A program made the translations under genes and the position numbers. Of a DNA stretch of 64,000 bases, positions 6,048 to 62,045 are shown piece after piece. How positions within the stretch are numbered: the stretch's first letter is position 1; each line of letters opens with the position of its first letter. The stretch spans positions 1-64,000 of the forward strand of contig JAFQAN010000019.1 in assembly GCA_017416915.1 (NCBI GenBank). The letters are read 5' to 3'. The stretch comes from Alistipes sp. Lineage in GTDB: Bacteria > Bacteroidota > Bacteroidia > Bacteroidales > Rikenellaceae. Under the pieces are notes generated by a model, which saw nothing but the letters and a program-made list of their open reading frames with translations, did not search any database and was not told where the DNA came from.

Positions 6048-6070
6048 ACGTGTATGCGTATAGTTACTTA

Positions 6071-6078
6071 CAAAGATA
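6071..6078 (-). promoter_or_regulatory. -7 promoter box of the luxE-like/licD operon
   Basis: TATCTTTG on the minus strand, an exact TAnnTTTG match, 23 bases upstream of the ATG at 6047. Confidence 0.65.
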
Positions 6079-6128
6079 CAAAAAAATGGCTTACGCCACA
6101 CTATGCCATCCAAAAAATCGCCATTTCG

Positions 6129-6222
6129 GAGCCTCCGCCACACCTATATAAAAGATTAAGAGCCGACCAAACGTTGTGTAGGGTCGGCTCTCAATCTGTT
6201 TACCTCCGAGTGGTGGAGGCTC
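6129..6222 (-). terminator. Terminator of thrS-infC with nested inverted repeat
   Basis: The inner hairpin pairs GAGCCGACC (6160-6168) with GGTCGGCTC (6182-6190). Read on the minus strand it is followed by CTTAATCTTTT, a terminator tail. An outer 13-base inverted repeat (6129-6141 and 6210-6222, one mismatch) encloses it and abuts the infC stop codon, making a long nested stem. Confidence 0.8.
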
Positions 6223-6834
6223 TTACTTCTTGCTCTTAGGCGCGAGAATCATATTCATCTTCTTGCCGTCGAGCTTAGGCATAAGCTCCACACGTGCAAT
6301 CTCCTCCAAGTCGTTGGCGAAGCGCAACAGCAAAATCTCGCCCTGCTCCTTGAAGACGATAGAGCGGCCGCGGAAGAAGACGTATGCCTTAACCTTAGCG
6401 CCCTCTTTGAGGAAGTTCTCGGCGTGTTTAAGCTTGAAGTTGTAGTCGTGGTCGTCGGTCTGTGGACCGAAACGAATCTCCTTGATGACGACCTTAACCT
6501 GCTTAGCCTTAATCTCCTTAGCCTTCTTCTTCTGCTGGTACAGAAACTTCTGGTAGTCGGCAATGCGACATACGGGCGGCTCTGCCTTGGGCGAAATCTC
6601 GATAAGGTCGAGTTCCATCTCGTCGGCAAGGCGTATCGCCTCCTTGATGGGCAATACGAGGTTAGGCTCAACGTTTTCGCCTACCACACGCACCTGAGGT
6701 GCTGTGATTTCGTCGTTGATGCGATGCGGGTTCTCCTGCACGGGACGGCGTCCACGTGCATCGCGCTGTTGATTGTTGTTCTGGTTATTCCCCTGCACCT
6801 GTGGGCGAGGTCGGAATGGAAATTGTCCTGCCAA
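6223..6834 (-). CDS. infC: Translation initiation factor IF-3
   Basis: A 203-residue initiation factor that binds the 30S subunit and checks start-codon pairing. The N-domain has [14 protein letters not shown] and ALDLIEISP-like [24 protein letters not shown]. The C-domain has [25 protein letters not shown]. An Asn/Gln-rich tail of about 35 residues precedes the N-domain. The start is a TTG at 6834. An in-frame stop lies four codons upstream and no ATG lies between it and the conserved domain, so the rare start is forced. Rare starts are known for infC genes and allow autoregulation. It follows thrS by 34 bases. The usual partners rpmI and rplT do not follow; a terminator does. Confidence 0.95.
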
Positions 6835-6868
6835 ATTGGTTAATTGTTAGTTATACTTAAATTGTTTG

Positions 6869-8812
6869 TTATGCCTTGTTTGCTTCAATCTCGGCAGCCA
6901 CGAGTCCCTGCATAAACTCTGTGAACTCGGCGATGGTCATCTGACCCTTGTCGCCTTCGCCCTGTGCGCGTACCGACACCTTGCGCTCAGCAGCCTCCTT
7001 CTCGCCTACGATAAGCAGGTAGGGGATGCGTTTAAGCTCGTTGTCGCGAATCTTACGACCAATCTTCTCGTTGCGGTCATCAACCTGTGTGCGTACGTCG
7101 TTGATATTCAGCTCGCGAGCCACCTCCTCGGCGTAGTCGTTGTACTTCTCCGAGATGGGCAGTACGACAACCTGGTCGGGAGAGAGCCACAACGGGAACT
7201 TTCCGCCCGTATGCTCCAACAATACCGCCACGAAGCGCTCCATAGAGCCAAAGGGCGCACGGTGAATCATAATGGGACGGTGTAGCTTGTCGTCCGACCC
7301 CTTATAGGTAAGGTCGAAGCGCTCGGGCAGGTTGTAGTCCACCTGAATAGTGCCGAGCTGCCAGCTACGACCGATAGCATCCTTGACCATAAAGTCGAGC
7401 TTAGGACCGTAGAACGCCGCCTCGCCATACTCCACAATAGTCGAGAGACCCTTGTTCTTCGCAGCCTCGATGATGGCGCTCTCTGCCTTCTCCCAGTTCT
7501 CGTCCGAGCCGATATACTTCTCGGTATTCTTGGGATCGCGCAGCGATACCTGTGCCGTGAACTTATCGAACTTCAACGTGCGGAAGATGTAGAGTACAAT
7601 GTCGATAACCTTCTCGAACTCCTCCAACAGCTGGTCGGGGCGCACGAAGAGGTGAGCATCGTCCTGCGTGAACGAGCGTACACGCGTCAGGCCGTGTAAC
7701 TCGCCCGACTGCTCGTAGCGATATACCGTGCCAAACTCGGCTAAGCGTACAGGGAGGTCCTTGTACGAGCGAGGCTTCGAGCGGTATATTTCGCAGTGGT
7801 GGGGGCAGTTCATAGGTTTGAGCAGATACTGCTCGCCCTCGATGGGAGTGCTGATAGGCTGGAACGAGTCCTTGCCATACTTTGCGAAGTGTCCCGAGGT
7901 CTTGTATAGCTCGATGTTACCGATGTGGGGTGTGATAACCTGCTGGTAGCCACCCTCCTTCTGTATCTTGCGCAAGAAGCGTTCGAGACGGTCGCGAAGG
8001 TCGGCACCCTTAGGCAACCACAATGGCAGACCCTGACCCACGCGCTGCGAGAAGGTGAACAGCTCCAACTCCTTGCCCAACTTGCGGTGGTCGCGCTTCT
8101 TTGCCTCCTCCAAGAGTGCAAGATGCTCGTCGAGCATCGACTTCTTGGGGAACGATACGCCATAGATACGCGTGAGCATCTTGTTCTTCTCGTTGCCACG
8201 CCAGTAAGCGCCCGCTACCGAGGTGAGCTTAATCGCCTTGATGTATCCCGTGTTGGGAATATGTGGACCACGGCAGAGGTCCGTGAACGAGCCGTTGGTG
8301 TAGAACGATATTGTGCCATCCTCCAAGTCGGTGATAAGCTCCACCTTGTACTGGTCGCCCTTCTCGGTAAAGGTCTTCAACGCATCGGCCTTAGATACCT
8401 CGGTGCGCACGAGCTGCTCCTTGTTGCGTGATAGCTCTACCATCTTCTGCTCGATGGTTGCAAGGTCCGCTTCGGTGATAGCTACGGGCGAGTCCACGTC
8501 GTAGTAGAAGCCGTTGTCGATGGCGGGACCGATACCGAACTTAATGCCTGGGTAGAGGGCTTCGAGAGCCTCCGCGAGGAGGTGCGAAGATGTGTGCCAG
8601 AAGGCGTGCTTGCCCTCGGCGTCATCCCACTTGAAGAATTTAATCGTACAGTCGCTGTCGATTGCGCGCGTCATATCGACCGTCGCGCCGTTTACCTCGG
8701 CAGCGAGTGAGTCAGCAGCTAAACGAGGGCTGATGCTCTCTGCTACCTGAAAGGCAGTTGTCCCTTTGGCATACTCTCTTACCGAGCCATCGGGAAAGGT
8801 TACTTTAATCAT
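6869..8812 (-). CDS. thrS: Threonyl-tRNA synthetase
   Basis: A 647-residue class II synthetase charging tRNA-Thr in the cytosol. Domains in order are TGS (about 1-62, [14 protein letters not shown]), the tRNA-editing SAD domain ([11 protein letters not shown] near 73-85; [14 protein letters not shown]), the catalytic core ([10 protein letters not shown] with a zinc ligand Cys; [45 protein letters not shown]) and the HGTP anticodon-binding domain (about 545-640). Length is standard. It heads the thrS-infC operon. The ATG at 8812 is the only plausible start. Confidence 0.98.
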
Positions 8813-8896
8813 AATGTTTTAATTTTTATTAGTTGTGATGCCTTCGTAGCTCCACAATAACGAGACGGATTACTACTCAGTTGCATCGTATTTATT

Positions 8897-9097
8897 TCAC
8901 TCTTCCTTTGTCGGTTTACCTATCTCCTTTGCAAGCGCTATAAGGCGTACAAGTGCGATGATGCCTATAATGGCGTAGAAGCTAAACCATAGCCACTCTG
9001 TTGGCCCTGCACCCCTTAACTCCACTTTTAAGCAGCTCACCACTGCAAGTCCAAGCAGTACAGCGCTTGTTACGACACTTATAATCACTCTAAACAT
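8897..9097 (-). CDS. Small two-helix membrane protein, unknown function
   Basis: A 66-residue protein, not recognised. Hydrophobic segments at about 3-22 and 33-54 flank a short loop (VELRGAGPTEW), with a basic/acidic tail (AKEIGKPTKEE) likely in the cytosol. It lies 18 bases downstream of pdxA on the same strand and probably shares its transcript. Similar two-helix proteins are common next to Bacteroidetes housekeeping genes without known roles. Confidence 0.6.
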   Translation of the reverse strand: MFRVIISVVTSAVLLGLAVVSCLKVELRGAGPTEWLWFSFYAIIGIIALVRLIALAKEIGKPTKEE

Positions 9098-9115
9098 CGG
9101 CTATAAGGGGCTAAA

Positions 9116-10210
9116 TTAGTCGTTAGGCTCTGTCTCGGGCAGATCCTTTACCGATATGTCGCGACCCTTCTCACGCTCGAAGTGCTGCAACGGGTTTTCG
9201 TTCCACTCTGTCCACGCATCACGGCGACGAACAATGTCGATGGCGTCGTATATTGCGTTACGCATCGACTGCGGGTCGGCAACGCCTCGTCCAGCGATGT
9301 CGTACGCCACGCCGTGGTCGGGCGAGGTGCGCACTGCCGCAAGCGATGCCGTGAAGTTTACGCCGTCGGGCGAGAGTGTCTTGAAGGGCGCTAAGCCCTG
9401 GTCGTGGTACATTGCAAGTATCGCATCGTACTGTTTGTAGGCTCCTGCTGCGAAGAAACCATCTGCCGCGAAGGGTCCAAATGCCAAAATATCCTCGCCA
9501 TAGCACTGCTCGATAGCGGGCTTTATTATCTGCTGCTCCTCCTCGCCAAGAAGCCCGCCGTCGCCTGCGTGGGGGTTGAGTGCCATTACGGCGATGCGGG
9601 GGCGCACGATGCCGAAGTCTTGACGCAACGACGCGTTAATCTGGCGTATGCGCTTTGCGATAAGCTCTTCGCTTAGAGCCTCTGCCACCTTTGCTACGGG
9701 CAGGTGTATCGTCGCGAGGCCTACGCGCATAAGCTCCGAACACATCATCATCAGCGGCTCGCCGTCAAGCTCCTTTGCCAAAAACTCGGTGTGTCCCGTG
9801 TATGGGAAGTCGGCGCTCTGTATCATCTCCTTGTCGATAGGGGCGGTTACAAGGGCATCTATTGTGCCATCGCGTAGGTCCTGTGCTGCGCGCTGCAAGG
9901 CTGCTGCTGCCGCTGCGCCACCCTCCTTCGAGGGCTTGCCAGGGGTTATCTTTACCTCGCGCTCGCCGCACTCGATGGTGTTTACCTTGCCGTGTGCGGC
10001 GCGCTCTGCGTTGTCGATGTGGTTGAAGCGTACAGGCTCAATCTCCTGCTGGTAACGCTTCTGGTAGTAGGCCGCTGCTGCCGACTGTCCGTAGATAATC
10101 GGAGTGCATAGCTCCGTGAGGCGGTTGTCCGCAAATATTTTGAGTATAATCTCCCAACCGATACCGTTGGTATCGCCTGCCGAGATGCCAATCTTTAATC
10201 TGTTGCTCAT
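9116..10210 (-). CDS. pdxA: 4-hydroxythreonine-4-phosphate dehydrogenase
   Basis: A 364-residue dehydrogenase of the pyridoxal-phosphate pathway, oxidising 4-phosphohydroxy-L-threonine with NAD before ring closure by PdxJ. Family motifs are GISAGDTNGIGWEII at the N-terminus, TAPIDKEMIQ, YTGHTEFLA, LNPHAGDGGLLGEEE and MYHDQGLAPFKTL, the last two carrying the metal-binding histidines. Length is slightly above the E. coli enzyme because of a charged C-terminal tail after about residue 335. A promoter box lies just upstream; a small membrane-protein gene follows. pdxJ is not in the window. Confidence 0.95.
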   Translation of the reverse strand: MSNRLKIGISAGDTNGIGWEIILKIFADNRLTELCTPIIYGQSAAAAYYQKRYQQEIEPVRFNHIDNAERAAHGKVNTIECGEREVKITPGKPSKEGGAAAAAALQRAAQDLRDGTIDALVTAPIDKEMIQSADFPYTGHTEFLAKELDGEPLMMMCSELMRVGLATIHLPVAKVAEALSEELIAKRIRQINASLRQDFGIVRPRIAVMALNPHAGDGGLLGEEEQQIIKPAIEQCYGEDILAFGPFAADGFFAAGAYKQYDAILAMYHDQGLAPFKTLSPDGVNFTASLAAVRTSPDHGVAYDIAGRGVADPQSMRNAIYDAIDIVRRRDAWTEWNENPLQHFEREKGRDISVKDLPETEPND

Positions 10211-10230
10211 AGTAACATTATTTCAACCTA

Positions 10231-10238
10231 CAAATATA
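10231..10238 (-). promoter_or_regulatory. -7 promoter box of pdxA
   Basis: TATATTTG on the minus strand, an exact TAnnTTTG match 20 bases upstream of the pdxA ATG. Confidence 0.6.
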
Positions 10239-10258
10239 CAAAAAAAAGTTATGAATCA

Positions 10259-10291
10259 CACTATTAGCACAATTTATTTGCTAAAATAGTG
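10259..10291 (-). terminator. Hairpin downstream of the TrmH-family gene
   Basis: CACTATTAGC and GCTAAAATAGTG form a stem with one bulged base. It lies between the minus-strand methylase gene (ends at 10373) and pdxA. An A-rich stretch on the plus strand beyond it supplies U in the minus-strand transcript. Confidence 0.5.
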
Positions 10292-10372
10292 CAGTGAGTC
10301 TAAATATGTGGGTTGTAGGCGGGGAGGGGTAGGCGGTCGTAAATGCGCTACCGAGGTCGTTGTGTGGCGGGG

Positions 10373-11107
10373 TTACCCTCTTCTAAATTCGGCAAGTACA
10401 ATGCCCGTAGCCATTGCCACGTTCAACGACTCTGAGGTGGGGCGGTCGGCGGGGTAGGGTGGGATGTATAGCTTGTGGCTCAGCGTCTTACGGCACGCCT
10501 CGCTCAGCCCACGTCCCTCGTTGCCCATAACGATAATGCCGTGGTTAAGAAGCTCCGTGTGGTATATATTCTCGCCGTCGAGCAGTGTGCCGTATATCGG
10601 CGAGCCTTGGTCAGCGGCAGTGCGTAGGTATGCCGCCAAGTCATCGACGTAGTGTACCTTGACGCGCAAAATGGCGCCCATTGTCGCCTGTATCACCTTG
10701 GGGTTATAGCAGTCGGCACACTCTGCCGAGCAGATGATGTCCTCGACGCCAAACCAGTCGGCAAGACGTATTATCGTGCCGAGGTTACCAGGGTTCTGCA
10801 CACCGTCGAGTGCGAGGCGCAGGGCTTTGCCATCCGTAGCGGGTAGCTTATGTCGCGGCTGCTCAACGACGGCAAGGTAGTCGGTGGCTGTTTTAAGCTG
10901 TGTTATGCGCTCCATCGTCGTGCGGTCGATATGCTCGATGTCTCTTCCGACGACGTCGTGGCGGGTGGTGTATATGCGGCGTATGACAAGGCTCGACGAG
11001 CGTATCTCTTCGACGAGCTTCTCGCCCTCGGCGATGAACAGATGTTCGCTGTCGCGCTGTCGCTTGTCGCCAAGCGAACGTACAAATTGTATCTCAGCCT
11101 TAGTCAT
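10373..11107 (-). CDS. TrmH/SpoU-family RNA 2'-O-methyltransferase
   Basis: A 244-residue SPOUT-class methyltransferase that uses S-adenosylmethionine to methylate ribose 2'-OH in rRNA or tRNA. The N-terminal substrate-binding domain has FVRSLGDKRQRDSEHLFIAEG. The trefoil-knot domain has ALDGVQNPGNLGTIIRLADWFG, then VMGNEGRGLSEACR and a final LNVAMATGIVLAEF. The exact target base cannot be told. I chose the ATG at 11107, one base after the rnz stop, over an upstream TTG at 11137 that would overlap rnz. It is the last gene of the trxB-rnz-methylase run. Confidence 0.9.
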   Translation of the reverse strand: MTKAEIQFVRSLGDKRQRDSEHLFIAEGEKLVEEIRSSSLVIRRIYTTRHDVVGRDIEHIDRTTMERITQLKTATDYLAVVEQPRHKLPATDGKALRLALDGVQNPGNLGTIIRLADWFGVEDIICSAECADCYNPKVIQATMGAILRVKVHYVDDLAAYLRTAADQGSPIYGTLLDGENIYHTELLNHGIIVMGNEGRGLSEACRKTLSHKLYIPPYPADRPTSESLNVAMATGIVLAEFRRG

Positions 11108-11108
11108 A

Positions 11109-12044
11109 TTAGCGCTGTGTAAAGGGTTGTGGTTCAATGGTAAATGTCTCTCCCTCCTGAGCTATATCGCTGTTGGGGAATATCTCGCGGCACTCCTCAA
11201 CAAGTGCTTGCGTATCCTTATGTCGCGAAGAGAAGTGTCCGATGATAAGGTGCCCTGCCTCGGCAAGCTGCGCTACACGTGCGGCATCCACCGTGGAGCT
11301 GTGTCCGCGCTCTCGCGCAAGATTGTGAAGCTCTGCCGAATAGGTTGTCTCATGGTACAGCAAATCGACCCCACGCACCCTTTCTGCCGCCTTTGCCGAG
11401 TAGTTGGTGTCCGACAGGTAGGCATACGAGCGAGCCTTGTAGGGGTAGTACGTAAGTTCGCTGTTGGCGATTACCTCGCCCGAATCAAGAGTTATATCCT
11501 CGCCACGCTTGGCCGCCACAATCTGGTGTAGGTTAAGCCCGTAGCGCTCAATCTTCCACTTATCGACATTCAGCCCAGGCTGCTTCTCGCGGAAGTGGTA
11601 GCCCGCCGTGGGTACGCGGTGTCGTAGAGGTATGCTCCACACTTCGAGTGTCGAGTTCTCCATAATGAGTGCGTGTTCCGTGGTCTTCACCTCGTGCCAC
11701 ACCACCTTGTAGGGCAGCTCCGCGTCGAAGTATCGCAGATGATACTCCAATATCTCGCCCATAGGTGCTGGCGCATAGACGTCCAACGGCACCTGGCGCC
11801 CGTAAAGCCCGAGTGTCGATATTAGTGGAAAGAGACCGAAGCAGTGGTCGCCGTGCAGATGCGAGATAAATACAGCCCTAAGGCGCAGCGGATTTATGCC
11901 GCGCCTTATGAGCTGCTGTTGTACCCCCTCGCCCGCATCGACTAAGTAGTATTGCTCGTTGAGGTTTACTACCTGTGCCGAGGGGTGGGCGTTTACGGTG
12001 GGTTTTGCCGAAGCGTTGCCTAATATGGTTACGCTGAATGCCAT
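11109..12044 (-). CDS. rnz: Ribonuclease Z
   Basis: A 311-residue metallo-beta-lactamase-fold endonuclease that trims tRNA 3' ends. The metal-binding signature SHLHGDH is at residues 61-67; further ligands lie in YLSDTNYSAKA (D) and IIGHFSSRHKD (H). Length fits the short tRNase Z form. The ATG at 12044 was chosen; a TTG codon directly before it is less likely. The stop codon is one base from the methylase ATG and the gene starts six bases after trxB, so the three genes look translationally coupled. Confidence 0.95.
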   Translation of the reverse strand: MAFSVTILGNASAKPTVNAHPSAQVVNLNEQYYLVDAGEGVQQQLIRRGINPLRLRAVFISHLHGDHCFGLFPLISTLGLYGRQVPLDVYAPAPMGEILEYHLRYFDAELPYKVVWHEVKTTEHALIMENSTLEVWSIPLRHRVPTAGYHFREKQPGLNVDKWKIERYGLNLHQIVAAKRGEDITLDSGEVIANSELTYYPYKARSYAYLSDTNYSAKAAERVRGVDLLYHETTYSAELHNLARERGHSSTVDAARVAQLAEAGHLIIGHFSSRHKDTQALVEECREIFPNSDIAQEGETFTIEPQPFTQR

Positions 12045-28157: not shown

Positions 28158-28820
28158 ATGAAAAAGATTATTACAGTATTGGTGGTCGCTTTTTCTTGTG
28201 TATTAACGTCGTGCGATAAATTAAAAGAACTGGGCATCATAGATCCTACAAAGTATTTTATAGAGATGGAATTAACCTTTGACGAATGGGAACTTGAAAA
28301 TGCAACAATCTCAACATATACAGATTTTACATTTAATCCCGTTTCTGGTGAAAACATGAGATTTATGATCATGGAAAACTATAACTATGATGGGAGAACT
28401 CGGTTTGAACTTTCGAGGGACGATATTCCTATTTACTGCAAAGATAATCAACTAAAAGAATTAGGCTTGGGGTTTTCGCTATTCCTTCGAGATATTCCAC
28501 TTATTGAGGGCGTAAAATATTATTTGGGTGATGTTGATGAGATTAACACAAGTGATGGAGTTGTTGTGCCTAATGAAGATAGCTGGACAATTAGTGGAAT
28601 TAGAATGTGGGGGGATGGTATCCGAACTCAAAGATCCACATTCGGTTGGATGAAGTTTACAAGAATTGAGTATGTTAGCAAAGATCATTACACAGGTTAC
28701 GAAATAGATTTGGAGTTTGAATTTGAGGTTAAGGACCCCGAAACAGGCGAAATAACGTTAAAGGTGGAAAATGGCAAAATATTCGATAACCCAGGTGAAT
28801 GGACGGTTAATGAAATTTAA
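28158..28820 (+). CDS. AT-rich lipoprotein, unknown function
   Basis: A 220-residue lipoprotein with lipobox VLTSC and acylated C19. It is not a recognised family. The mature chain is acidic and rich in aromatic and beta-prone stretches (EMELTFDEWELENATIS; YEIDLEFEFEVKDPETGEITLKV), suggesting a beta-sandwich. Base composition is clearly more AT-rich than surrounding housekeeping genes and codon choice differs, consistent with recent acquisition or fast evolution. A decayed lipoprotein leader lies immediately upstream. Confidence 0.7.
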   Translation: MKKIITVLVVAFSCVLTSCDKLKELGIIDPTKYFIEMELTFDEWELENATISTYTDFTFNPVSGENMRFMIMENYNYDGRTRFELSRDDIPIYCKDNQLKELGLGFSLFLRDIPLIEGVKYYLGDVDEINTSDGVVVPNEDSWTISGIRMWGDGIRTQRSTFGWMKFTRIEYVSKDHYTGYEIDLEFEFEVKDPETGEITLKVENGKIFDNPGEWTVNEI

Positions 28821-29757: not shown

Positions 29758-31215
29758 CTATCTGCTCAGTCGCACCTCAAAGGGGGTAACGGGCAGACCT
29801 TCACAGCTTTTCAGGTTGCCAGGCTTAAAGTCGCCCCAGCCGTAGCGCACCACCTGTGGGTCGTGAACATACTCCGAGCGAACGCGTAGCAGACGGCTAT
29901 CCCACTCGAAATATGCAAATGTCACGGGGTAGAAGATGCCCTCGCTGCCTGCAACCTCCAAGCCCTCGATGTCGCGCCAACGGTTCAAACCGTTAGGCAC
30001 GTGGCTGAGTCGTACGCCAATCTCGTTGCTGTTGGGCAGTGCCACAGCCTCTTCTGCCTCGGGCGAGTAGCAGGCGACATGCTCAAAGCCGTAGTCGCGG
30101 TGCAGTGCCAACCACGCAAGGCGCTCGCCAACGGGCTCTTTGCGCATAGGGTGTATGTTGTCCTTCTCGAAGGGCTCTACAAGGTCGTTGGTAACCACAA
30201 TAGCACTATTCGGAATGGTACGTGCCGCCTCGTGCTGAGCCTCACGCAGCAATGCTGCCGACTCATACTGCTCCGAACTCTTATAGCGGTAGGGTGCTAT
30301 CTCCACGGTGTAGAAGGGTAGGCGGCAATCCTTATCGTCGTTCCAATCCTCTCGCCACGCATCGACCATATTTGTCATACGCTCCACAAAGCGACCATCC
30401 TCGCCCACGTTGGAGCATCCCTGATACCATATAAAGCCTCGTATCGTATAGCCACGCAAGGGGCATAGCATAGCGTTATACATAACCATAGGGCGGTAGT
30501 AGTGCGTCGTCATAGCGTCGATGGCCTCGCGCGAGAGATTTACATCGTCGTACCCCTCCAAAACGTCGCGCGGCGTCCAACTCTCGACCTTTGCACCGCC
30601 ATACGCCGCGTTGAGGATGCCTACTGGCACGTCGAGCGCACGTGATAGATGTGCCGCAAAGAAGTATGCCGTGGCGCTCATCTCCTTAACCTCGGCGGGT
30701 GTGGCGCGCAACCACGCACCCTCGCAATAGCGCTCCTCGTTGTGCGACTGCGTGAGCTTGACGTTGAACATACGCACGTGGTCGCCACCTGCGGGGCAGG
30801 CGAAGACGCGATTAGCACCCTCGACGGGTGAGTTGAAGAAGCCGCGCAGGGGCATCTCCATATTCGACTGTCCCGAGGCAAGCCATATCTCGCCGATAAG
30901 CACGTCGCCAACGGCAATCTGCTCCTTGCCGTCGCTGAAAAGTATGGTGTAGGGGGTATATCCGCCCTCGGGCGTTGCCACGCTAAGCTCCCATCTGCCG
31001 CTCTTATCTGCCTTGGTGGTGTGTGTAAGGTTGTCCCACGAGGTGGTTACGCTGATTGTCGCACCACTTGCCGCCTCGCCCCATAGCTTTGCCTCGCTCG
31101 ATTGGAGCAGTACCATACCATCGGTAATAGGCGACGCCAAGCGTAGCTGTGCAGAGAGTGTTGCGGTGGTAAGTAGCAGTGCTACGACCATCGTCATTCG
31201 TCCAAAAAGTCTCAT
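29758..31215 (-). CDS. Sialate O-acetylesterase-like carbohydrate esterase
   Basis: A 485-residue exported esterase with a signal peptide (about 1-22, ending LSAQ). The SGNH nucleophile block is GEIWLASGQSNMEMPL (near 112-127), with AAYGGAKVESWTPRDVL and FIWYQGCSNVGEDGRF as further family motifs. A beta-sandwich segment (about 25-105) precedes the catalytic part. Sialate O-acetylesterase relatives in polysaccharide loci remove O-acetyl groups from plant glycans. Here it probably deacetylates hemicellulose fragments for the nearby GH enzymes. It lies 99 bases downstream of the xylose transporter gene, behind its own hairpin and -7 box. Confidence 0.85.
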   Translation of the reverse strand: MRLFGRMTMVVALLLTTATLSAQLRLASPITDGMVLLQSSEAKLWGEAASGATISVTTSWDNLTHTTKADKSGRWELSVATPEGGYTPYTILFSDGKEQIAVGDVLIGEIWLASGQSNMEMPLRGFFNSPVEGANRVFACPAGGDHVRMFNVKLTQSHNEERYCEGAWLRATPAEVKEMSATAYFFAAHLSRALDVPVGILNAAYGGAKVESWTPRDVLEGYDDVNLSREAIDAMTTHYYRPMVMYNAMLCPLRGYTIRGFIWYQGCSNVGEDGRFVERMTNMVDAWREDWNDDKDCRLPFYTVEIAPYRYKSSEQYESAALLREAQHEAARTIPNSAIVVTNDLVEPFEKDNIHPMRKEPVGERLAWLALHRDYGFEHVACYSPEAEEAVALPNSNEIGVRLSHVPNGLNRWRDIEGLEVAGSEGIFYPVTFAYFEWDSRLLRVRSEYVHDPQVVRYGWGDFKPGNLKSCEGLPVTPFEVRLSR

Positions 31216-54458: not shown

Positions 54459-54478
54459 ACCTACAAAACTCGTTGATT

Positions 54479-56047
54479 ATGAATATTCGCGCTATCTTAT
54501 TGACGGCTGCTATGCTGGTCGCAACTACCGTGTCGGCACAGCAGACCCACGGCTACTCAAACCCTGTTATCAAGGGCTTCTATCCCGACCCGAGCGTCTG
54601 CCGCGTAGGCGAGGATTACTACTTGGTAAACAGTAGCTTTGTCTATTGGCCAGGTGTGCCTATCTTCCATAGCCGCGACCTTATACATTGGCAGCAGATA
54701 GGCAACTGCCTCGACCGCCCCTCGCAGCTTAAAGTTGCCGAACAGCCCCATTGGGGCGGCATCTACGCCCCGACAATACGCCACCACGACGGCATATTCT
54801 ATATGATTACGACAAATACGTCGGATAGGGGTAACTTCCTCGTCTATACCGACGACCCGCGAGGTCCGTGGTCCGACCCCGTATGGTTGAAGCAGGGCGG
54901 TATCGACCCCTCGCTATACTTCGAGGATGGCGTATGCTATATGGTAAGCAACCCCGAGGATGGCATATCGCTATGCACCATCGACCCCAAGACGGGCGAG
55001 CAGCTTACACCGTCGCGTGTCATCTGGCGCGGCACGGGAGGTCGCTACCCCGAGGCTCCACACATCTACAAGCACAACGGCTGGTACTATCTGCTTATCT
55101 CGGAGGGCGGCACTGAGTTCGGACATAGCGTAACTATCGCACGTAGCCGCTCTATCGACGGCGAGTACGAGGTAAACCCCGATAACCCTATCCTCACGCA
55201 CTTCAAGCAGGCGGGGCAGAATAGCCCCATTCAAGGTGTCGGACACGCCGACTTTGTCGAGGCTCACGATGGTAGCTGGTGGCTGGTATGCTTGGCATTC
55301 CGTATTCAGGGCGGTCAGCACCACCTTCTCGGTCGTGAGACCTTTCTCGCGCCTGTGGAGTGGAACGATGAGGGGTGGCCCGTGGTAAATAAGGTGGGTA
55401 TGGTGTCGCTCGAAATGGATGTGCCGACGCTTACGCAGGTAGAGATGCCGCAGCTGCCCGAGATAGAGGAGTTTAACGGCACGGAGATAGGTATGGAGTG
55501 GCTACGTCTGCGTGAGCCGCAGTTCGAGAACTATCGCCTCAGTGGCGGCAGGCTGATACTTACACCCACCGAGACAACCCTTGATGAGCAGGCGTCGCCC
55601 ACGTTCATAGCGCGCCGTCAGCAGGATATTTTCTTTGAGGCGACAACGGCACTATCGCTCTTCGACGCTTCGCAGGGCGACCGTGCGGGGCTAAGTGTCT
55701 ATATGGACCCCGGGGCGCACTACGACCTATACATCGAGCGTGGGGCTAAGGGGTGCTATGTTGTGTTGAGCTATCGTCTTGGCAAACTCGAACATAAGGC
55801 ACGTATGGTAAAGTTGAAGAAAAACCGTGCTACGCTGCGTGTCGAGGGAAGCGACTATATGTATAGCTTCTCGTATTCGGAGAATGGCAAGGACTTTATG
55901 CCATTAGGCTCTATGGATACGAAGTATCTCAGTTCCGAGACTAATGGCGGCTTCACGGGTGTTGTCCTTGGTCTCTACGCCACCAAGTATTCTGCCGCCT
56001 CACGTGCAACAGCCGAGGTGGAGTACTTTGAGTATAAGGGTAGATAG
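54479..56047 (+). CDS. GH43 arabinofuranosidase/xylosidase-like enzyme
   Basis: A 522-residue exported enzyme with a signal peptide (about 1-20, ending TVSAQ). The five-bladed propeller (about 28-320) shows the family 43 triad: base D37 in GFYPDPS, D143 in GGIDPSLYF and acid E192 in RYPEAPHI. A C-terminal concanavalin-like domain (about 325-520) starts near LPEIEEFNGTEIG. Members with this layout release arabinofuranose or xylose; paired GH43 enzymes in xyloglucan loci remove arabinose side chains of solanaceous xyloglucan. The ATG at 54479 was chosen over a TTG at 54473. It is the last gene of the block, 20 bases after GH95. Confidence 0.88.
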   Translation: MNIRAILLTAAMLVATTVSAQQTHGYSNPVIKGFYPDPSVCRVGEDYYLVNSSFVYWPGVPIFHSRDLIHWQQIGNCLDRPSQLKVAEQPHWGGIYAPTIRHHDGIFYMITTNTSDRGNFLVYTDDPRGPWSDPVWLKQGGIDPSLYFEDGVCYMVSNPEDGISLCTIDPKTGEQLTPSRVIWRGTGGRYPEAPHIYKHNGWYYLLISEGGTEFGHSVTIARSRSIDGEYEVNPDNPILTHFKQAGQNSPIQGVGHADFVEAHDGSWWLVCLAFRIQGGQHHLLGRETFLAPVEWNDEGWPVVNKVGMVSLEMDVPTLTQVEMPQLPEIEEFNGTEIGMEWLRLREPQFENYRLSGGRLILTPTETTLDEQASPTFIARRQQDIFFEATTALSLFDASQGDRAGLSVYMDPGAHYDLYIERGAKGCYVVLSYRLGKLEHKARMVKLKKNRATLRVEGSDYMYSFSYSENGKDFMPLGSMDTKYLSSETNGGFTGVVLGLYATKYSAASRATAEVEYFEYKGR

Positions 56048-56122: not shown

Positions 56123-56214
56123 CTTTTAGAATAGATACTTCTCCGTGCGCACCCTCTCTGTGAGCTGGAAAATCTCGCGCCACGCCTCCTCGCCAAGGAT
56201 TGTGCCTACAACCT
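56123..56214. repeat. Left 92-bp direct repeat (kinase gene 3' end)
   Basis: Matches 61041-61132 base for base except at two positions near the right side (CCAAGGATTG versus CCAAAGGTTG). Identity stops abruptly at both ends. Together the two copies bracket the second susC/susD pair. Confidence 0.95.
56126..56214 (-). pseudogene. 3' fragment of the pfkB-family kinase gene
   Basis: On the minus strand this encodes GTILGEEAWREIFQ followed by LTERVRTEKYLF and TAA, which is the C-terminal end of the kinase at 61044-62045 with two substitutions (intact gene: GTTFGEEAW). It has no start, no promoter and no remaining kinase domain. It is the displaced or duplicated end of that gene, separated from it by 4.8 kb. 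Confidence 0.9.
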
Positions 56215-56288
56215 ATACCTCATTGTCATTTCACCCCCTATTTACGTCGTTTAACCGCTTTTTTGTGCAAAATAATGACTATAATTGT

Positions 56289-56296
56289 TATATTTG
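56289..56296 (+). promoter_or_regulatory. -7 promoter box of the second susC operon
   Basis: TATATTTG, an exact TAnnTTTG match, with TTTG at 56262-56265 as a possible -33 box (23-base spacer, slightly long). The ACAAACGATACCCCT motif of the first locus is absent here, so regulation differs. Confidence 0.6.
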
Positions 56297-56340
56297 CAAC
56301 CCGAATTCTTATTGTATTGTGCTTAAAGAAGGATTAAACG

Positions 56341-59295
56341 ATGAGAAAACTTATTTACAAACTACTTTTATGCGTAGCTATATCTACCATATTTGCCCAA
56401 TCTTCCCTCTTAAAGGCTCAACAGCCTTTTGATGATATTACCATTACGGGAACTGTAATGAACGAGGATGGAGAGGTTATTGTTGGTGCGACAGTCATAC
56501 TTAAAGGACACACGACTCGTGGTACATCAACAGACTCTAACGGTAGATACAGCCTCGCCGTCCCGCCTGGTTCAACACTTCTGGTATCGTTCATTGGCTA
56601 TGATGATCAAGAAGTAGTGCTTCAACCCGATGAAAATGACTATCTGACAACGCTTAATGAGTCGCAGACGCGCATTAATGATGTGGTCATTGTGGGTTAT
56701 GGCGAAATTAAGAAGAGCGACCTGACAGGCTCCGTATCTGTTGTTAGCGAGCGTAGCTTCTATGACCAACCAGTAAAGAGTGTGTCGGAGATACTTCAAG
56801 GTCGTTCGTCGGGTGTCGAGGTAACCACGATAAGTGGTATGCCTGGTGCAAGTACTAAGGTGCGTGTACGTGGTACCACCTCAATAAACAAGTCGAGCGA
56901 TCCGCTATACGTTATAGATGGTATCATCAGCACAAGTGGACTTGACGGCATCAACCCGCAAGACATCGCCTCGATGCAGATTCTCAAAGATGCATCCTCG
57001 ACATCGGTGTATGGCTCGCGCGGAGCCAATGGCGTAGTCTTAATAACTACTAGAAATGGTCAGTCGGGCGATGCTCGCATTACGTTTAGCTCAAAGATTG
57101 GTATTTCCGACGTGAGAAAGAGCTACGACCTGCTATCGCCATACGAGTACGCATTGGCTCTGAACGATATACGCGGAGCTGGCACCATAAGCGATGACGA
57201 TGTAGAGCTATACCGCCTCGGCGAGAAGGGTATTGACTGGATAGACCTGATGACACGTACGGCGATAAGTCAGGACTATAACCTGAGCTTTACGGGTGGT
57301 GGCGATAAGGTCCGTTATATGCTATCGGGCAACATCCTCGACCAGGAGGCGGTAACCATCGATTCGAAGTATATGCGTTATGGCCTACGCGCCAATATCG
57401 AGGCAGATATTAAACCTTGGCTCACGATTAGCACAAAGCTAAATGGCTCGATACTTCACCAAAAAAATGGTGCGCCCAACTGGTTTCACGTTTTGAACTA
57501 CTCGCCCACGATGGAGCTGATGGATGCTACAACAGGCATATACAACAAAGACCCGTATAACATCCTCAGCAATAACCCCTATGGCGTAATAAAAGAGACC
57601 GATAGCGACACTTACAGCTATAACATAAATGCCAATGCGGGGCTAACCTTTCACATCGTAAGGGGCTTGACGCTTGGCATACAGGGTGGCTACGACTTCG
57701 ATTATGCGCCATCCTACTCGTTCGTGTCGAGCCGTGTGGCACCTGGTGCGACAAATAGTATGTCTAACACCTCGGCACTACATCAGTATTGGCAGAATAC
57801 CAACAACCTAACTTACAGCAACACCTTTGGTCGTCATACCCTTGCTGCCACAGCCGTTTTTGAGCTAAGCAGCACAACAGATACACGTATGAGCATCAGT
57901 GGCTCGGGGCTAAGCAACGAGAGTGTAGGATACTGGGATGTTACCAATGCTGCAACACGTAGTGAGACAAACTCATATACCGAGTCGTCGCTAATGTCGG
58001 GTATTATGCGCGTGAACTACGACTATGGCAAGCGCTACTTCTTCACCGCGGCGGTCCGTGCCGACGGCTCGTCGAAGTTTCAGTCGGAACATCGCTGGGG
58101 TCTCTTCCCCTCGGCGGCTGTTGCCTGGGATATTGCGGCGGAGCGCTTCATGAAGAGCCAGCGGGTGGTATCGCAACTTAAATTACGCGCCAGCTTTGGT
58201 ATTACGGGTAACGAGGGTATCTCAGCGTACAACACACTCGGTATGTTATCAAGCACGTCGTATGGATGGGGTACCTCGACAGGCTATACGGGCTACTGGG
58301 GAAACACCTTTGCATCGCCCGACTTGACGTGGGAGAAGACCACGCAGTGGGATGTAGGTCTTGATGCAACAATTCACGGTATTAACATATCATTCGACTG
58401 GTTTCGCAAAGATACCGAAGATCTGCTCTTCCAAAAGCAGGTGCCTCACTACAACGGTGGTGGTACATATTGGGTAAATCAGGGAGCGCTTAAAAATAGC
58501 GGATACGAGTTTTCACTCAATACCTTTGTCATCGACAGAGCTGTCAAGTGGGAGACTACGGCAAACGTATCGTATATTGTCAATGAAGTTGTGGATTTGG
58601 CGGGTAACGACTTCGTCCTCACTGCCAATTATAGCGACCTCGGAGGCCCTATGCAGATTATGAAGCCTGGCTATCCTCTCGGCTCCTTCTACGTCTATGA
58701 TTGGATAGAGTTTGACAACGCAGGAGCTAACGTCTATCGCAAGGCCGACGGTGGCACAACCACTGCTCCTACCTCTGCGGACCTTGTAATTCGTGGTAAC
58801 GCCACACCTAAGTGGCTTGTGGGTTGGAATAACTCTATTATATGGCGTAACCTCTCGGTAAATCTCTTCTTCTATGGAGCTTTCGACTACGACCGTCTAA
58901 ACATAAGTCGTTTCACGACGGCGTCGATGAGTGGTGGCTCACGTTTTATATCGCTCCGCGACTCATATTTTAAGGGCTGGGACTATGTCGAGGATAAGTC
59001 TCAGGCGCAGTATGCAAGCGTTAAAAATACGAATAATAAGAGTTATGCCAACACCACATTTTGGCTTGAAGATGCATCGTTCGTAAAGCTTAAAAACGTA
59101 ACCATATCGTACACCATACCTCGACATACTACCCGTTTTGCCGATATTCAGCTCTCGGTCAGCGCGCAGGATATATTTACCCTGACAAAATATAAGGGTA
59201 TGGACCCAGAGGTCTATTCAAGTTACGAGGGTTTGGACTACGGCGCCTATCCCGTGCCTCGCACCATTACATTTGGTCTTAAACTAACATTCTAA
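56341..59295 (+). CDS. SusC-family TonB-dependent transporter, second pair
   Basis: A 984-residue outer-membrane receptor: signal peptide (about 1-27), CarboxypepD_reg-like domain (about 33-110, ITITGTVMNEDGEVIVGATVILKG), plug with VVIVGYGEIKKSDLTGSV and SSDPLYVIDGI, and a barrel ending FGLKLTF. It is about 65 residues shorter than the first SusC and only distantly similar, so it is not a recent duplicate. Codon use looks somewhat more AT-rich than in the first locus. No glycosidase, regulator or binding protein accompanies it, so the imported glycan is unknown. Forms an operon with the susD gene six bases downstream. Confidence 0.95.
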   Translation: MRKLIYKLLLCVAISTIFAQSSLLKAQQPFDDITITGTVMNEDGEVIVGATVILKGHTTRGTSTDSNGRYSLAVPPGSTLLVSFIGYDDQEVVLQPDENDYLTTLNESQTRINDVVIVGYGEIKKSDLTGSVSVVSERSFYDQPVKSVSEILQGRSSGVEVTTISGMPGASTKVRVRGTTSINKSSDPLYVIDGIISTSGLDGINPQDIASMQILKDASSTSVYGSRGANGVVLITTRNGQSGDARITFSSKIGISDVRKSYDLLSPYEYALALNDIRGAGTISDDDVELYRLGEKGIDWIDLMTRTAISQDYNLSFTGGGDKVRYMLSGNILDQEAVTIDSKYMRYGLRANIEADIKPWLTISTKLNGSILHQKNGAPNWFHVLNYSPTMELMDATTGIYNKDPYNILSNNPYGVIKETDSDTYSYNINANAGLTFHIVRGLTLGIQGGYDFDYAPSYSFVSSRVAPGATNSMSNTSALHQYWQNTNNLTYSNTFGRHTLAATAVFELSSTTDTRMSISGSGLSNESVGYWDVTNAATRSETNSYTESSLMSGIMRVNYDYGKRYFFTAAVRADGSSKFQSEHRWGLFPSAAVAWDIAAERFMKSQRVVSQLKLRASFGITGNEGISAYNTLGMLSSTSYGWGTSTGYTGYWGNTFASPDLTWEKTTQWDVGLDATIHGINISFDWFRKDTEDLLFQKQVPHYNGGGTYWVNQGALKNSGYEFSLNTFVIDRAVKWETTANVSYIVNEVVDLAGNDFVLTANYSDLGGPMQIMKPGYPLGSFYVYDWIEFDNAGANVYRKADGGTTTAPTSADLVIRGNATPKWLVGWNNSIIWRNLSVNLFFYGAFDYDRLNISRFTTASMSGGSRFISLRDSYFKGWDYVEDKSQAQYASVKNTNNKSYANTTFWLEDASFVKLKNVTISYTIPRHTTRFADIQLSVSAQDIFTLTKYKGMDPEVYSSYEGLDYGAYPVPRTITFGLKLTF

Positions 59296-59301
59296 CCTAA
59301 T

Positions 59302-60906
59302 ATGTCAATGAGAATTAAATATATAGCTATCCTATTAGCAGCATCGCTGCTATTGCCCGCCTGCTCTGATTTTCTCGATGAAGATCCGAAGGGCAAGATG
59401 CCGAGCGATGGGTTCTTTACAAGCAAAAAGGACCTTGACGCTTCGCTAAATGCACTCTACTCGGTTGTTACCTCCTCGCAACGTGCCAACAACCTCATCG
59501 GCACCAACTTCCTATCGGGTGATGACATCTCGACGCATCCTGCCAGCAACAAGCAGTCGCTAAGAGAACACGACCAGTATGACGTAACGGATAACAACGC
59601 CTGGATGGTAAGTATGTGGGAGCAGCGATATAAGGTTATCAAGGCGGCGAATTTTATTATCAATAATGCTGAGCGTACGCCCAATGTTAGTAAAGAGGAG
59701 ATTCGTCAGGCAGTGGCGCAGGCTCACTATTGGCGTGGCTTCTCATACTTCTACCTTGTTACAACTTGGGGCAAGGTGCCTGTTATGCTTGATGAAACAA
59801 TAGACTATAATACCCCGCTAAGCAGCATTGAGGATATATACGAACTTATCCTCGACGATATGCGTATTGCAGAGGAGGGCTGCCCCGTAAATTATAGTGC
59901 AGCACCATATTGGCAAAATGGGGTTAATGTGGCAGTTAGTCAAGGTGCCGTAAAGGCGACAATGGCATATATTTATATGTGTATGGCGGGCTGGCCAATG
60001 AACCTCGGTACGGAGTATTATAAGCTGGCAGCCAAGAAGGCTGAGGAGGTCATAGATCTCGCTGATAGTGGCGTATATTACTATCGACTCCTCGACAACT
60101 ACTCGGATATATACTCGATGGCTTATAGCAAGTCTAATCCCGAGCTTCTCGTTGGACTATATTACCACCGCGACCGCTCTTCTCACGCTATGCCTCTTAC
60201 AGATTTTCTGCTTGAAATGAAGCAGGGTGGCTGGGGAGATACCAATGGCGAGATTAAATTCTGGAAGGAGTTCCCCGAGGGTCCGCGTAAGGATGCCACC
60301 TACTTCCCTAAGGTTATGCTCGCCGATGGAAAACTCTACGATTGGTGGTATGACACCGACCCTAAGTCGCGCGAGGTTGTTGCTCCGCTGTTTATTAAGA
60401 CCGCCGAGTCGGCAATACGCGGTGCAGAGTTCGACTATGCCGATCCTACGCCAGGAGTGTCGGCAGGCGAGAAGACGTTGCAAATAATACGTCTGGCGGA
60501 GGTGTACTGCTGGTATGCCGAGGCGACGGCGCGCGCTGGCGAGGTAACGCAGAAGGCTGTCGATGTTCTCAACCGTGTCCGTAACCGCGCAGATGGCAAA
60601 CTTTCCAATATTTACACTATGGCGATGAGTGCCGAGGAGCTTGCCGAAGCGGCATATAACGAGCATGGTTGGGAGATTGCGGGGTACTATTGGTGCGGCT
60701 TTGCATCGCGCTCACGCGATATGTTCCGTATGTACCGTATGAAAGAACACTTCGAGTACCGTAAGCAAAACCCTATGATTGAGGTTGCGCCAGGCATCTT
60801 CCGCAATGAGGCAGTCGCTGTGTCTGGAACTTGGGATGACAGTAAGATGTATTGCCCATATCCGTATGAGGATAAGGCTCTTAACCCTGAATTGAAGGCT
60901 CAGTAA
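59302..60906 (+). CDS. SusD-family lipoprotein, second pair
   Basis: A 534-residue lipoprotein with lipobox LLPAC (C21). Typical features are CSDFLDEDPKGKMPSDGFFTSKKDLDASLNALYS, AVAQAHYWRGFSYFYLVTTWGKVPVML, IIRLAEVYCWYAEATAR and NRVRNRADG, with a C-terminal PYPYEDKALNPELK in place of the usual PIP motif. It caps the adjoining SusC. The ATG at 59302 is six bases after susC; a second ATG at 59308 is also possible. Ligand unknown. Confidence 0.94.
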   Translation: MSMRIKYIAILLAASLLLPACSDFLDEDPKGKMPSDGFFTSKKDLDASLNALYSVVTSSQRANNLIGTNFLSGDDISTHPASNKQSLREHDQYDVTDNNAWMVSMWEQRYKVIKAANFIINNAERTPNVSKEEIRQAVAQAHYWRGFSYFYLVTTWGKVPVMLDETIDYNTPLSSIEDIYELILDDMRIAEEGCPVNYSAAPYWQNGVNVAVSQGAVKATMAYIYMCMAGWPMNLGTEYYKLAAKKAEEVIDLADSGVYYYRLLDNYSDIYSMAYSKSNPELLVGLYYHRDRSSHAMPLTDFLLEMKQGGWGDTNGEIKFWKEFPEGPRKDATYFPKVMLADGKLYDWWYDTDPKSREVVAPLFIKTAESAIRGAEFDYADPTPGVSAGEKTLQIIRLAEVYCWYAEATARAGEVTQKAVDVLNRVRNRADGKLSNIYTMAMSAEELAEAAYNEHGWEIAGYYWCGFASRSRDMFRMYRMKEHFEYRKQNPMIEVAPGIFRNEAVAVSGTWDDSKMYCPYPYEDKALNPELKAQ

Positions 60907-60971
60907 ACTGCGGTTTTTCGGGCATCGCAAGCCTAAAACCACATCTTTTTATTCGACCTCCTAACAAAGAT

Positions 60972-61003
60972 GGGGATGACTAAATTACCTCTTAGTCATC
61001 CCC
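60972..61003 (+). terminator. Terminator of the second susC/susD operon
   Basis: GGGGATGACTAA and TTAGTCATCCCC form a perfect 12-bp stem around ATTACCTC. It lies 65 bases after the susD stop and 37 before the right repeat. Confidence 0.85.
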
Positions 61004-61040
61004 TTAGTGTGCAGTGGCGTCGCTTTTTACATCGTCGCCT

Positions 61041-61132
61041 CTTTTAGAATAGATACTTCTCCGTGCGCACCCTCTCTGTGAGCTGGAAAATCTCGCGCCA
61101 CGCCTCCTCGCCAAAGGTTGTGCCTACAACCT
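61041..61132. repeat. Right 92-bp direct repeat (kinase gene 3' end)
   Basis: The intact counterpart of 56123-56214. It spans the last 29 codons of the kinase gene, its stop codon and three bases beyond. See the left copy. Confidence 0.95.
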
Positions 61133-62045
61133 CGATAACCTTGCCCGCCGTGATAGCGCCGATAGTGCCGCACTGCCTTAGCGATAGCCCCTCACACAGT
61201 GCCGAGAGGAAGCCTGCGGCGTAGAAGTCGCCCGCACCTGTGGTATCTACTCGCTTGGCAGCCGCCATAATGCCCACGTGAACAACCTCGTCGCCACGCT
61301 TGATAAGTGCGCCGCGTGTGCCAATCTTCACAACGACCAACTCGCACATACGGCTGATATGCTGCAAGGCGTTGAGCGGCTCCTGCTCGTGGCTGAAAGC
61401 GCGCGCCTCATCCTCGTTGGCAAATAGAATATCTACATAGCGCTCGACCAACTCACGCAAGAAGTCGCGGTTCTCCTCCACCACGTTGAACGAGGCGAGG
61501 TCGATAGCGACCTTCAAGCCGTGTGCCTTAGCCTTCTCGATGGTGGTGCGTATAAGGTCGTGGTCCTGCACCAAGTAGCCCTCGATATATAGGCAGTCGT
61601 AGCTGTCGAAGATGTCGCCATCGACATCCGAGGGGTGTAGGTCTGCCGCTGCGCCGAGGTGTGTAACGAGGGTGCGCTCGCCGTCGGGCGATACCAACGA
61701 TACGCACTTGCCCGACTTATGCCCCGAACGCAACATAAACGGCTCGACGCCCACGTTGCGCAGTGCCTGCTCGTAGAAGTCGCCCGTAGTGTCGTTGCCC
61801 ACCTTGCCGATGAAGCCTACCGCGGTGCCAAGGCGCGCCATAGCACGTATCGTATTACCCGCCGAGCCGCCGAGCGACAGCGAGTAGGGGCATCCTGCCA
61901 CCGACTTCGACACGTCGGTCTGCATCTGACTATCTACAAGGCTCATAGAGCCTTTGGCGAGCTGATATTGCGCAAGCACCTCGTCGTTCGAGAGGTTTAC
62001 AAGCATATCGGTAAGGGCATTTCCTATGCCTATGACACGTTTCAT
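61044..62045 (-). CDS. PfkB-family carbohydrate/nucleoside kinase
   Basis: A 333-residue ribokinase-fold kinase resembling adenosine/sugar kinases. The N-terminal GIGNALTDMLVNLSND, the SLGGSAGNTIRAMARLG signature with VGFIGKVGNDTTGDFY, and the C-terminal DTTGAGDFYAAGFLSAL with the catalytic Asp are all present. The substrate (adenosine, fructose or another sugar) cannot be told. It is the last gene of a pspC-pfkA-pfkB operon (39 bases after pfkA). Its last 29 codons are duplicated 4.9 kb away beside the GH43 gene, so its 3' end appears to have been an insertion point. Confidence 0.9.
   Translation of the reverse strand: MKRVIGIGNALTDMLVNLSNDEVLAQYQLAKGSMSLVDSQMQTDVSKSVAGCPYSLSLGGSAGNTIRAMARLGTAVGFIGKVGNDTTGDFYEQALRNVGVEPFMLRSGHKSGKCVSLVSPDGERTLVTHLGAAADLHPSDVDGDIFDSYDCLYIEGYLVQDHDLIRTTIEKAKAHGLKVAIDLASFNVVEENRDFLRELVERYVDILFANEDEARAFSHEQEPLNALQHISRMCELVVVKIGTRGALIKRGDEVVHVGIMAAAKRVDTTGAGDFYAAGFLSALCEGLSLRQCGTIGAITAGKVIEVVGTTFGEEAWREIFQLTERVRTEKYLF

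Follow-up and report, generated by a model that had tools for sequence, protein, structure and literature searches.

The window discussed here, i.e., the whole stretch of DNA analysed, comprises 64,000 nucleotides of an Alistipes sp. genome assembly (GCA_017416915.1, contig JAFQAN010000019.1, positions 1 to 64,000 of the forward strand). Toward its right end it carries a second gene pair of the SusC/SusD type (susC2-susD2), which lies between a GH43 gene and the gene of a pfkB-family carbohydrate kinase. The 3' end of the kinase gene is found on both sides of the pair: as an orphan fragment on the left and within the intact gene on the right. We presume that the pair was inserted as a unit; the evidence for this and for other explanations is considered below. 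Compared genomes are given G numbers and individual loci L numbers where they have to be told apart. The features concerned are the following.

54473..56047, forward strand: GH43 gene (Pfam PF04616 and PF17851), the left neighbour and last gene of a locus read as xyloglucan-type.
56123..56214, reverse strand: left 92-bp copy, an orphan kinase 3' end with a derived base; 90 of 92 bases match 61041-61132.
56215..61040, forward strand: segment of 4,826 bp, read as inserted and bounded by the two repeat copies; it holds an operator-like site, a promoter region, susC, susD and a terminator-like repeat.
56230..56256, forward strand: direct repeat TTCACC-N15-TTAACC, operator-like, 15 bp in from the left boundary.
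56341..59295, forward strand: susC2, a SusC/RagA-family TonB-dependent outer-membrane transporter of 984 amino acids (aa) (NCBIfam TIGR04056; Pfam Plug and barrel).
59302..60906, forward strand: susD2, a SusD/RagB-family lipoprotein of 534 aa (Pfam SusD-like_3 and SusD_RagB), with orthologues in the genus.
60891..61005, forward strand: terminator-like repeat of an interspersed, intergenic kind; it contains a hairpin, overlaps the final susD2 codons and is matched elsewhere in the genome.
61041..61132, reverse strand: right 92-bp copy, inside the intact kinase gene, delimited by the repeat comparison.
61044..62045, reverse strand: intact pfkB-family carbohydrate kinase of 333 aa (Pfam PF00294, 175.7 bits).

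The duplicated block had been noticed from the letters alone, with two mismatches, and comparison of the window with itself confirms this: the copies align without gaps, their longest common exact run is 74 bp, and a simple formula gives no chance expectation of such a repeat in 64 kb. The block was described as the last 29 codons and the stop of the kinase gene. It is the kinase end indeed; its exact content is the stop codon, the last 28 codons and 2 further bases (89 bp), plus 3 bp past the stop. The GH43 gene ends at 56047, which leaves the 75 bp to the left copy that had been given. At one of the mismatches the intact gene has C, as do all 58 kinases compared (our genome included), and the fragment has T; thus, the fragment holds at least one derived base and has drifted. 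At the other, the intact gene shares T with 43 of the 58 kinases, and the fragment has the C found in 15 of them.

These details also bear on a trivial explanation, namely an artefact of draft assembly. The genome is in 42 contigs, and both the 92-bp repeat and the interspersed repeat sit at junctions. However, an exact run of only 74 bp and two mismatches make the fragment a distinct sequence, and the junction between it and the region upstream of susC is not within any repeat found. We consider an artefact extremely improbable.

The kinase end was searched for in 180 genomes of the genus with a query of 106 bases, at most four candidates being scored per genome. At least 123 genomes contained a match; divergence is the probable cause of its absence from the other 57. 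Among the matches listed, our genome alone has a second copy of high identity, so no other cassette bounded by this kinase end, for which a search had been suggested, appeared in the other 179 genomes. Among the kinase ends of other species, the best reaches 87% identity along almost the full query (short sub-stretches reach 92%). Since the copies in the window are 98% alike, the duplication looks recent and lineage-specific, and the same comparison speaks against import of the kinase end from a different species. On the scale of the species compared, a recent origin of the duplication within this lineage is the most likely.

The flank of the kinase gene agrees with an insertion in this lineage, which had also been proposed. 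In none of 57 relatives examined does a susC2-susD2 pair lie 3' of the kinase (47 offered the full 3 kb and 10 offered 94 to 2,618 bp); a YgiQ-type radical-SAM gene is present within these 3 kb in 16 of the 57. The nearest vacant site is that of G127, which shares with the window the order kinase, pfkA, PspC and has a single kinase end. An esterase gene lies there 29 bp from the kinase stop and is a 74% orthologue of the window esterase at 29758-31215. G127 and our genome group together in a tree of kinase plus pfkA (support 0.92).

The segment between the repeats was said to be a promoter-susC-susD-terminator unit lacking enzymes, and this stands. SusC2 scores 793 bits against TIGR04056 (cutoff 368), with both plug and barrel matched in Pfam; its best match of solved structure, 8aa4_A (listed as a SusC homolog; 429 bits over residues 30-984), is distant. 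All remaining open reading frames (ORFs) of at least 60 aa overlap susC2 or susD2 and do not exceed 169 aa, according to the ORF list (the family scans covered susC2 and susD2). Of a canonical polysaccharide utilization locus, neither enzymes nor a sensor or regulator are found between the repeats, only susC and susD. No recombinase gene is seen in 56123-61132 from the ORF list and from Pfam and NCBIfam searches of the two genes, again as had been stated. The segment does not look like a transposon: the duplication is of 92 bp rather than short, and there are no clear terminal inverted repeats (the best 20-mer within 60 bp of the ends matches at 13 of 20 positions, the 95th percentile of shuffles).

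The operator-like site is the only match of at least 11/12 to its motif in the window. In 13 of 15 species a TTCACC-N15/17-TTCACC match of at least 10/12 occurs within 160 bp upstream of susC; G115 and G156 score only 9/12. The motif was picked by eye from these same sequences, so the test is partly circular. A search for a regulon in our genome was uninformative, giving 13 matches with at most one mismatch against 11 for the reversed control. As far as annotation allows, the inserted segment is a self-contained importer unit with a putative control site of its own.

The interspersed repeat at 60891-61005 has 10 further matches at 9 other places of our genome, several of them partial. It is about 60-115 bp long and consists of a hairpin and a AAAAGATGTAGTTTTAGGC-type segment, with inverted GAATAAAAA ends in some copies; matches also occur in relatives, e.g., G123, G092 and G021. 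On two contigs of our genome, C37 and C4 (L145 and L146; other copies are, e.g., L145-L151), the same two ORFs stand at equal spacing beside this repeat. Both stretches are near contig ends and may represent a duplicated region or strain variants.

Orthologues of susD2 (66-89% identity) were found in 14 of the 179 other genomes of the genus, one copy in each. The search passed 25 of 180 genomes at E 1e-20; 15 of them, our genome included, have orthologues at 66% or more, and 10 at 32% or less were dropped. Those relatives of the pair in the genus that bear a name are metagenome assemblies of "Alistipes sp." or of Rikenellaceae; according to their titles, all of the "Alistipes sp." ones come from gut samples of ruminants or deer. 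In six species (G004, G109, G113, G117, G123 and G161) the pair follows ung-AlkP. AlkP and ung are close together in all 30 loci fetched, and susC2 stands behind AlkP in 3 of the 30. Elsewhere the context differs: NqrA and TatD in G142, peptidase M1 and glycerate kinase in G119, a CvpA-like gene in G083, pheT and a dicarboxylate symporter in G156, SPFH and HAD in G128, a release factor gene (prfB) and dnaG in G091, MFS and C-N hydrolase in G080, and an 842-aa ORF at a contig end in G115. In total there are about ten contexts across 15 species, the window included, and none of the other 14 has the pair beside this kinase.

Two of these places can be compared in filled and vacant form. Between the ends of homology, the prfB-dnaG interval measures 4,867 bp in G091 (filled) and 48 bp in G005 (vacant), and the pheT-symporter interval 4,809 bp in G156 (filled), the vacant forms having 452 bp (G091) and 685 bp (G083). 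These comparisons and the variety of contexts support the view, so far as gene order can tell, that orphan SusCD pairs are gained, lost and relocated in the absence of enzymes; the idea that minimal importer cassettes move without enzymes is thereby upheld.

Another explanation is relocation within the genome. A tandem duplication could have run from the kinase end to a resident susCD, most of one copy being deleted afterwards. In G109, G123, G113 and G161, the four relatives in which this stretch was read through, susC does lie 29-31 kb away on the 5' side of the kinase, in the orientation needed, and our genome has a single copy of the pair. However, the gene order 5' of our kinase is that of G127 (pfkA, PspC) and not that of G109, and in the window AlkP, the susCD neighbour in those species, is found 3' of the kinase at a distance of about 59 kb. 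The composition of the pair is also against it (see below), and we regard this origin as unlikely.

The GC content of the pair is 48.7% against 55.3% in its flanks; the difference of 6.6 points is the largest among 15 species, the next being 3.1 points. At third codon positions (GC3), susC2 and susD2 have 52.8 and 55.0, the second and third lowest values of the 38 window ORFs of at least 200 aa (the other 36 have a mean of 66.6 and a standard deviation of 6.8). The composition suggests that the pair came from a source of lower GC. Transfer between species is likely in one other case, that of G080 (L115), judging by third-position identity with G091 (L114): 58% for susC and 56% for susD against 39% for the kinase and 40% for pfkA, the two core genes compared. 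A search for kinase mosaicism by sliding windows gave no clear signal.

The left neighbour of the pair requires a separate comment. No orthologue of the GH43 gene was found in the genus, the best relative being 44% identical. In the window the interval between esterase and kinase is 29.8 kb (31216-61040). The esterase is followed by a sugar transporter, a xylose-isomerase-like gene, an FGGY kinase, GH31, the first SusCD pair, a lipoprotein-like gene, GH5, a hybrid two-component regulator, GH95 and GH43, and then by the kinase fragment and susCD2. We call this enzyme locus xyloglucan-type from its gene set. As the same interval is 29 bp in G127, it seems that two loci have gathered at a single point, and the xyloglucan-type locus, too, may have been inserted 3' of the kinase. 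Three other genomes have orthologues of its first SusC at 72-73%, and the best match after these reaches 45% (among the matches listed, at most four candidates being scored per genome). In G072 (L168, L169), a distant member of the genus, an orthologous locus (GH31, SusCD, regulator and GH95) lies about 5 kb from the kinase; orthologues of GH43 or susCD2 were not found in the stretch of G072 that was read.

Two further observations concern the window to the left of the esterase. An ORF of very low GC (36%, GC3 33%) without a Pfam match occupies 28158-28820, and 29008-29144 matches the start of a small lipoprotein gene of G127, possibly as a decayed copy.

With a whole locus missing in G127, one can also propose that susCD already stood at the kinase and that the fragment arrived with the enzyme locus, the donor having had GH43 directly next to a kinase end. 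The absence of the entire 29.8-kb stretch in G127 is in its favour, the enzyme locus of the window possibly being an insertion at the same place. Still, two separate events at the same position and a near-conspecific donor would be required, whereas insertion of susCD between GH43 and the kinase explains the pattern in one step; we find this order of arrival decidedly unlikely.

Beyond the genus, one genome per species was scanned (84,980 species). The family of the pair is spread across Bacteroidales, with at least 79 loci in Bacteroides, Phocaeicola, Tannerella-type genomes, Dysgonomonas and others; a susC2 relative adjoins the susD2 relative in 72 of the 79, among the matches listed. In Bacteroides and Phocaeicola the pair stands among core genes such as pheS, mfd and mutS2 (names read from the translations, pheS being annotated as well). 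With susD2 as the only query, no relative was found in viral contigs. Seven phage records contain susD2 relatives (the best is 40% identical), and two plasmid records contain them at 28% and 71%. The 71% match was considered as a vehicle and dismissed, since Bacteroides finegoldii "plasmid 10" (L320, NZ_OY725912.1) looks chromosomal. This record carries pgk, pheS, ruvC and other core genes.

Integrative elements are known to enter the 3' ends of genes or tRNA genes, leaving a direct repeat of the gene end and the gene intact. It is tempting to propose, as was done in the sequence-only reading, that an integrase targeted the kinase end. In the form considered here, a susCD circle with an attP site mimicking this end would have been integrated by an enzyme acting in trans, and the repeats would be attL and attR. 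Integration at a gene 3' end predicts what is seen in this respect: the gene is whole again, and the repeat extends 3 bp beyond its stop codon. Yet the flanks of the 14 other sites in the genus contain no direct repeat comparable to the 92-bp one (in G115 one of the flanks is only 190 bp long). The best direct match there is of 15 bp (E 0.019, in G161), the others are weaker, and a 17-bp match in G123 is inverted. Among the Bacteroidales loci, 63 of 79 have enough flank for this test (up to 14 of the 79 are from the same Alistipes or Rikenellaceae assemblies as the genus test); 56 of the 63 lack a flanking direct repeat at E up to 0.05 and 7 have one.

The repeats found in that test are of different kinds. 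The 27-bp repeat of L200 (Bacteroides cutis) was examined as a gene-end scar and rejected, since it is the 3' end that two complete tRNA-Ser genes have in common; the susCD pair there lies between these genes, GGA and TGA, at 5286-11211. The repeat of L220, a Bacteroides assembly, flanks a susC-susD pair at 5687-5772 and 10619-10704. It was likewise rejected as a gene-end fragment: it is an 87-bp, 82% repeat, intergenic and placed around a canonical-looking locus. The region of L264 has two susC-susD pairs, and in the flanks of one pair there are several direct repeats, about 95-156 bp in length (85-92%). Short matches (15-24 bp, E 0.018) flank L193, L207, L218 and L245.

An integrase predicts a recombinase, a shared att site and usually a foreign copy of the gene end. 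The insert has no recombinase and no clear terminal inverted repeats, the other 179 genomes have no second kinase end among the matches listed, and the flanks at other sites are as just described, L200 and L220 not being gene-end fragments. Site-specific integration is thus rejected as the leading idea, and we hold it to be very unlikely; a segment of 4.8 kb with two genes only, and no att site shared with other sites, is also unlike the elements known to use gene 3' ends. A bolder proposal is about as improbable in our opinion. The 92-bp repeats could delimit a cassette excisable by RecA. Recombination between them would then yield a circle of 4.9 kb with operator, susC, susD and the kinase tail, for which one crossover would suffice to integrate at the kinase end of any strain. 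If true, importers would spread in Bacteroidales without their enzymes, by a class of transporter circles that are tagged with a gene end and need no recombinase of their own.

We believe that the following account has a somewhat better than even chance of being correct: an orphan SusCD unit recombined into the 3' end of the kinase gene in this lineage and duplicated 92 bp of the recipient's own kinase end. The unit would belong to the orphan SusCD family found across Bacteroidales, whose two genes move together and without enzymes. A relative of lower GC probably supplied the copy, which would have been joined at the kinase 3' end beside the xyloglucan-type locus already resident there. The joining would have duplicated the recipient's kinase end, so that one side kept the complete gene and the other a dead 3' fragment. 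Most likely, recombination took place without a dedicated recombinase, by one of two routes: staggered or template-switched repair that copied the 92 bp twice, or homology-facilitated illegitimate recombination in the kinase with a conspecific donor. Either route would explain the near-identical copies, the intact kinase and the lack of repeats at other sites, and the present data cannot separate the two. What is observed is the repeat, the unit, the lack of a second such duplication in the genus at the sensitivity of the search, and the different locations of the pair in relatives, with two vacant sites; which donor was involved, in what order things happened and how the repair proceeded is what we infer.

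Several points weigh against this account. In the tree of the pair our genome groups with G142 (88% for SusC, 91% for SusD). Third-position identity with G142 is 51% for susC and 56% for susD, and 52-66% for core genes; third positions are near saturation between species, and no close species is in the comparison. The G142 pair being no closer than the core genes, a recent transfer from G142 is not shown, and it is possible that a resident copy of the pair was relocated instead. No donor with matching flanks was found among the genomes compared, which are of other species rather than of conspecific strains; because the assemblies are incomplete, findings of one copy or of none are minimum values. 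The filled and vacant sites are not uniform either: prfB-dnaG holds other sequence in G083 and G156, and simple adjacency is not kept in G128 and G080. The kinship with G127 is weakly supported, and the closest relative differs between separate DNA trees of kinase and pfkA. Finally, both the motif and the mechanism were arrived at after inspection of the data.

Homology-facilitated illegitimate recombination reportedly joins foreign DNA beside a stretch of homology and leaves partial duplications in Acinetobacter, Pseudomonas stutzeri and pneumococcus. The partial duplication is the likeness to our case; the difference is that the process is described for transformation and that no donor is found here. 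As to the unit itself, orphan SusC/SusD pairs are known in Bacteroidota, and ours resembles them in having a TonB-dependent SusC and a SusD partner, its match of solved structure (8aa4_A) being only distant. Utilization loci are usually discussed as spreading whole or on conjugative elements.

PMC8845570 is also a source for that view of whole loci and conjugative elements. According to it, the glycan-utilization genes of B. ovatus/xylanisolvens lie precisely between core-gene "genomic nodes", mostly lack mobile-element functions and vary among relatives; Hfr-like chromosome transfer with homologous exchange between nodes is proposed for Bacteroides (PMC8845570). Our observations are similar in that the unit stands between core genes adjacent in relatives that lack it (G091 and G005; G156 against G091 and G083), and the comparison with G127 fits for the whole 29.8-kb stretch between esterase and kinase, adjacency being not uniform elsewhere. 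They differ in that one enzyme-free susC-susD pair is concerned, at about ten places in the genus, with a 92-bp duplication of a gene end. In the open-licence literature searched, titles and abstract openings contain no description of a stand-alone SusCD pair moving with a gene-end duplication.

By this analogy, our best reading is that the case resembles the published exchange of utilization loci at its smallest scale, with a visible scar. An importer alone, with what may be its own control site, occupies about ten places in one genus, and one of its arrivals would be young enough to keep the scar. The junction scar makes the mechanism by which importer pairs arrive testable.

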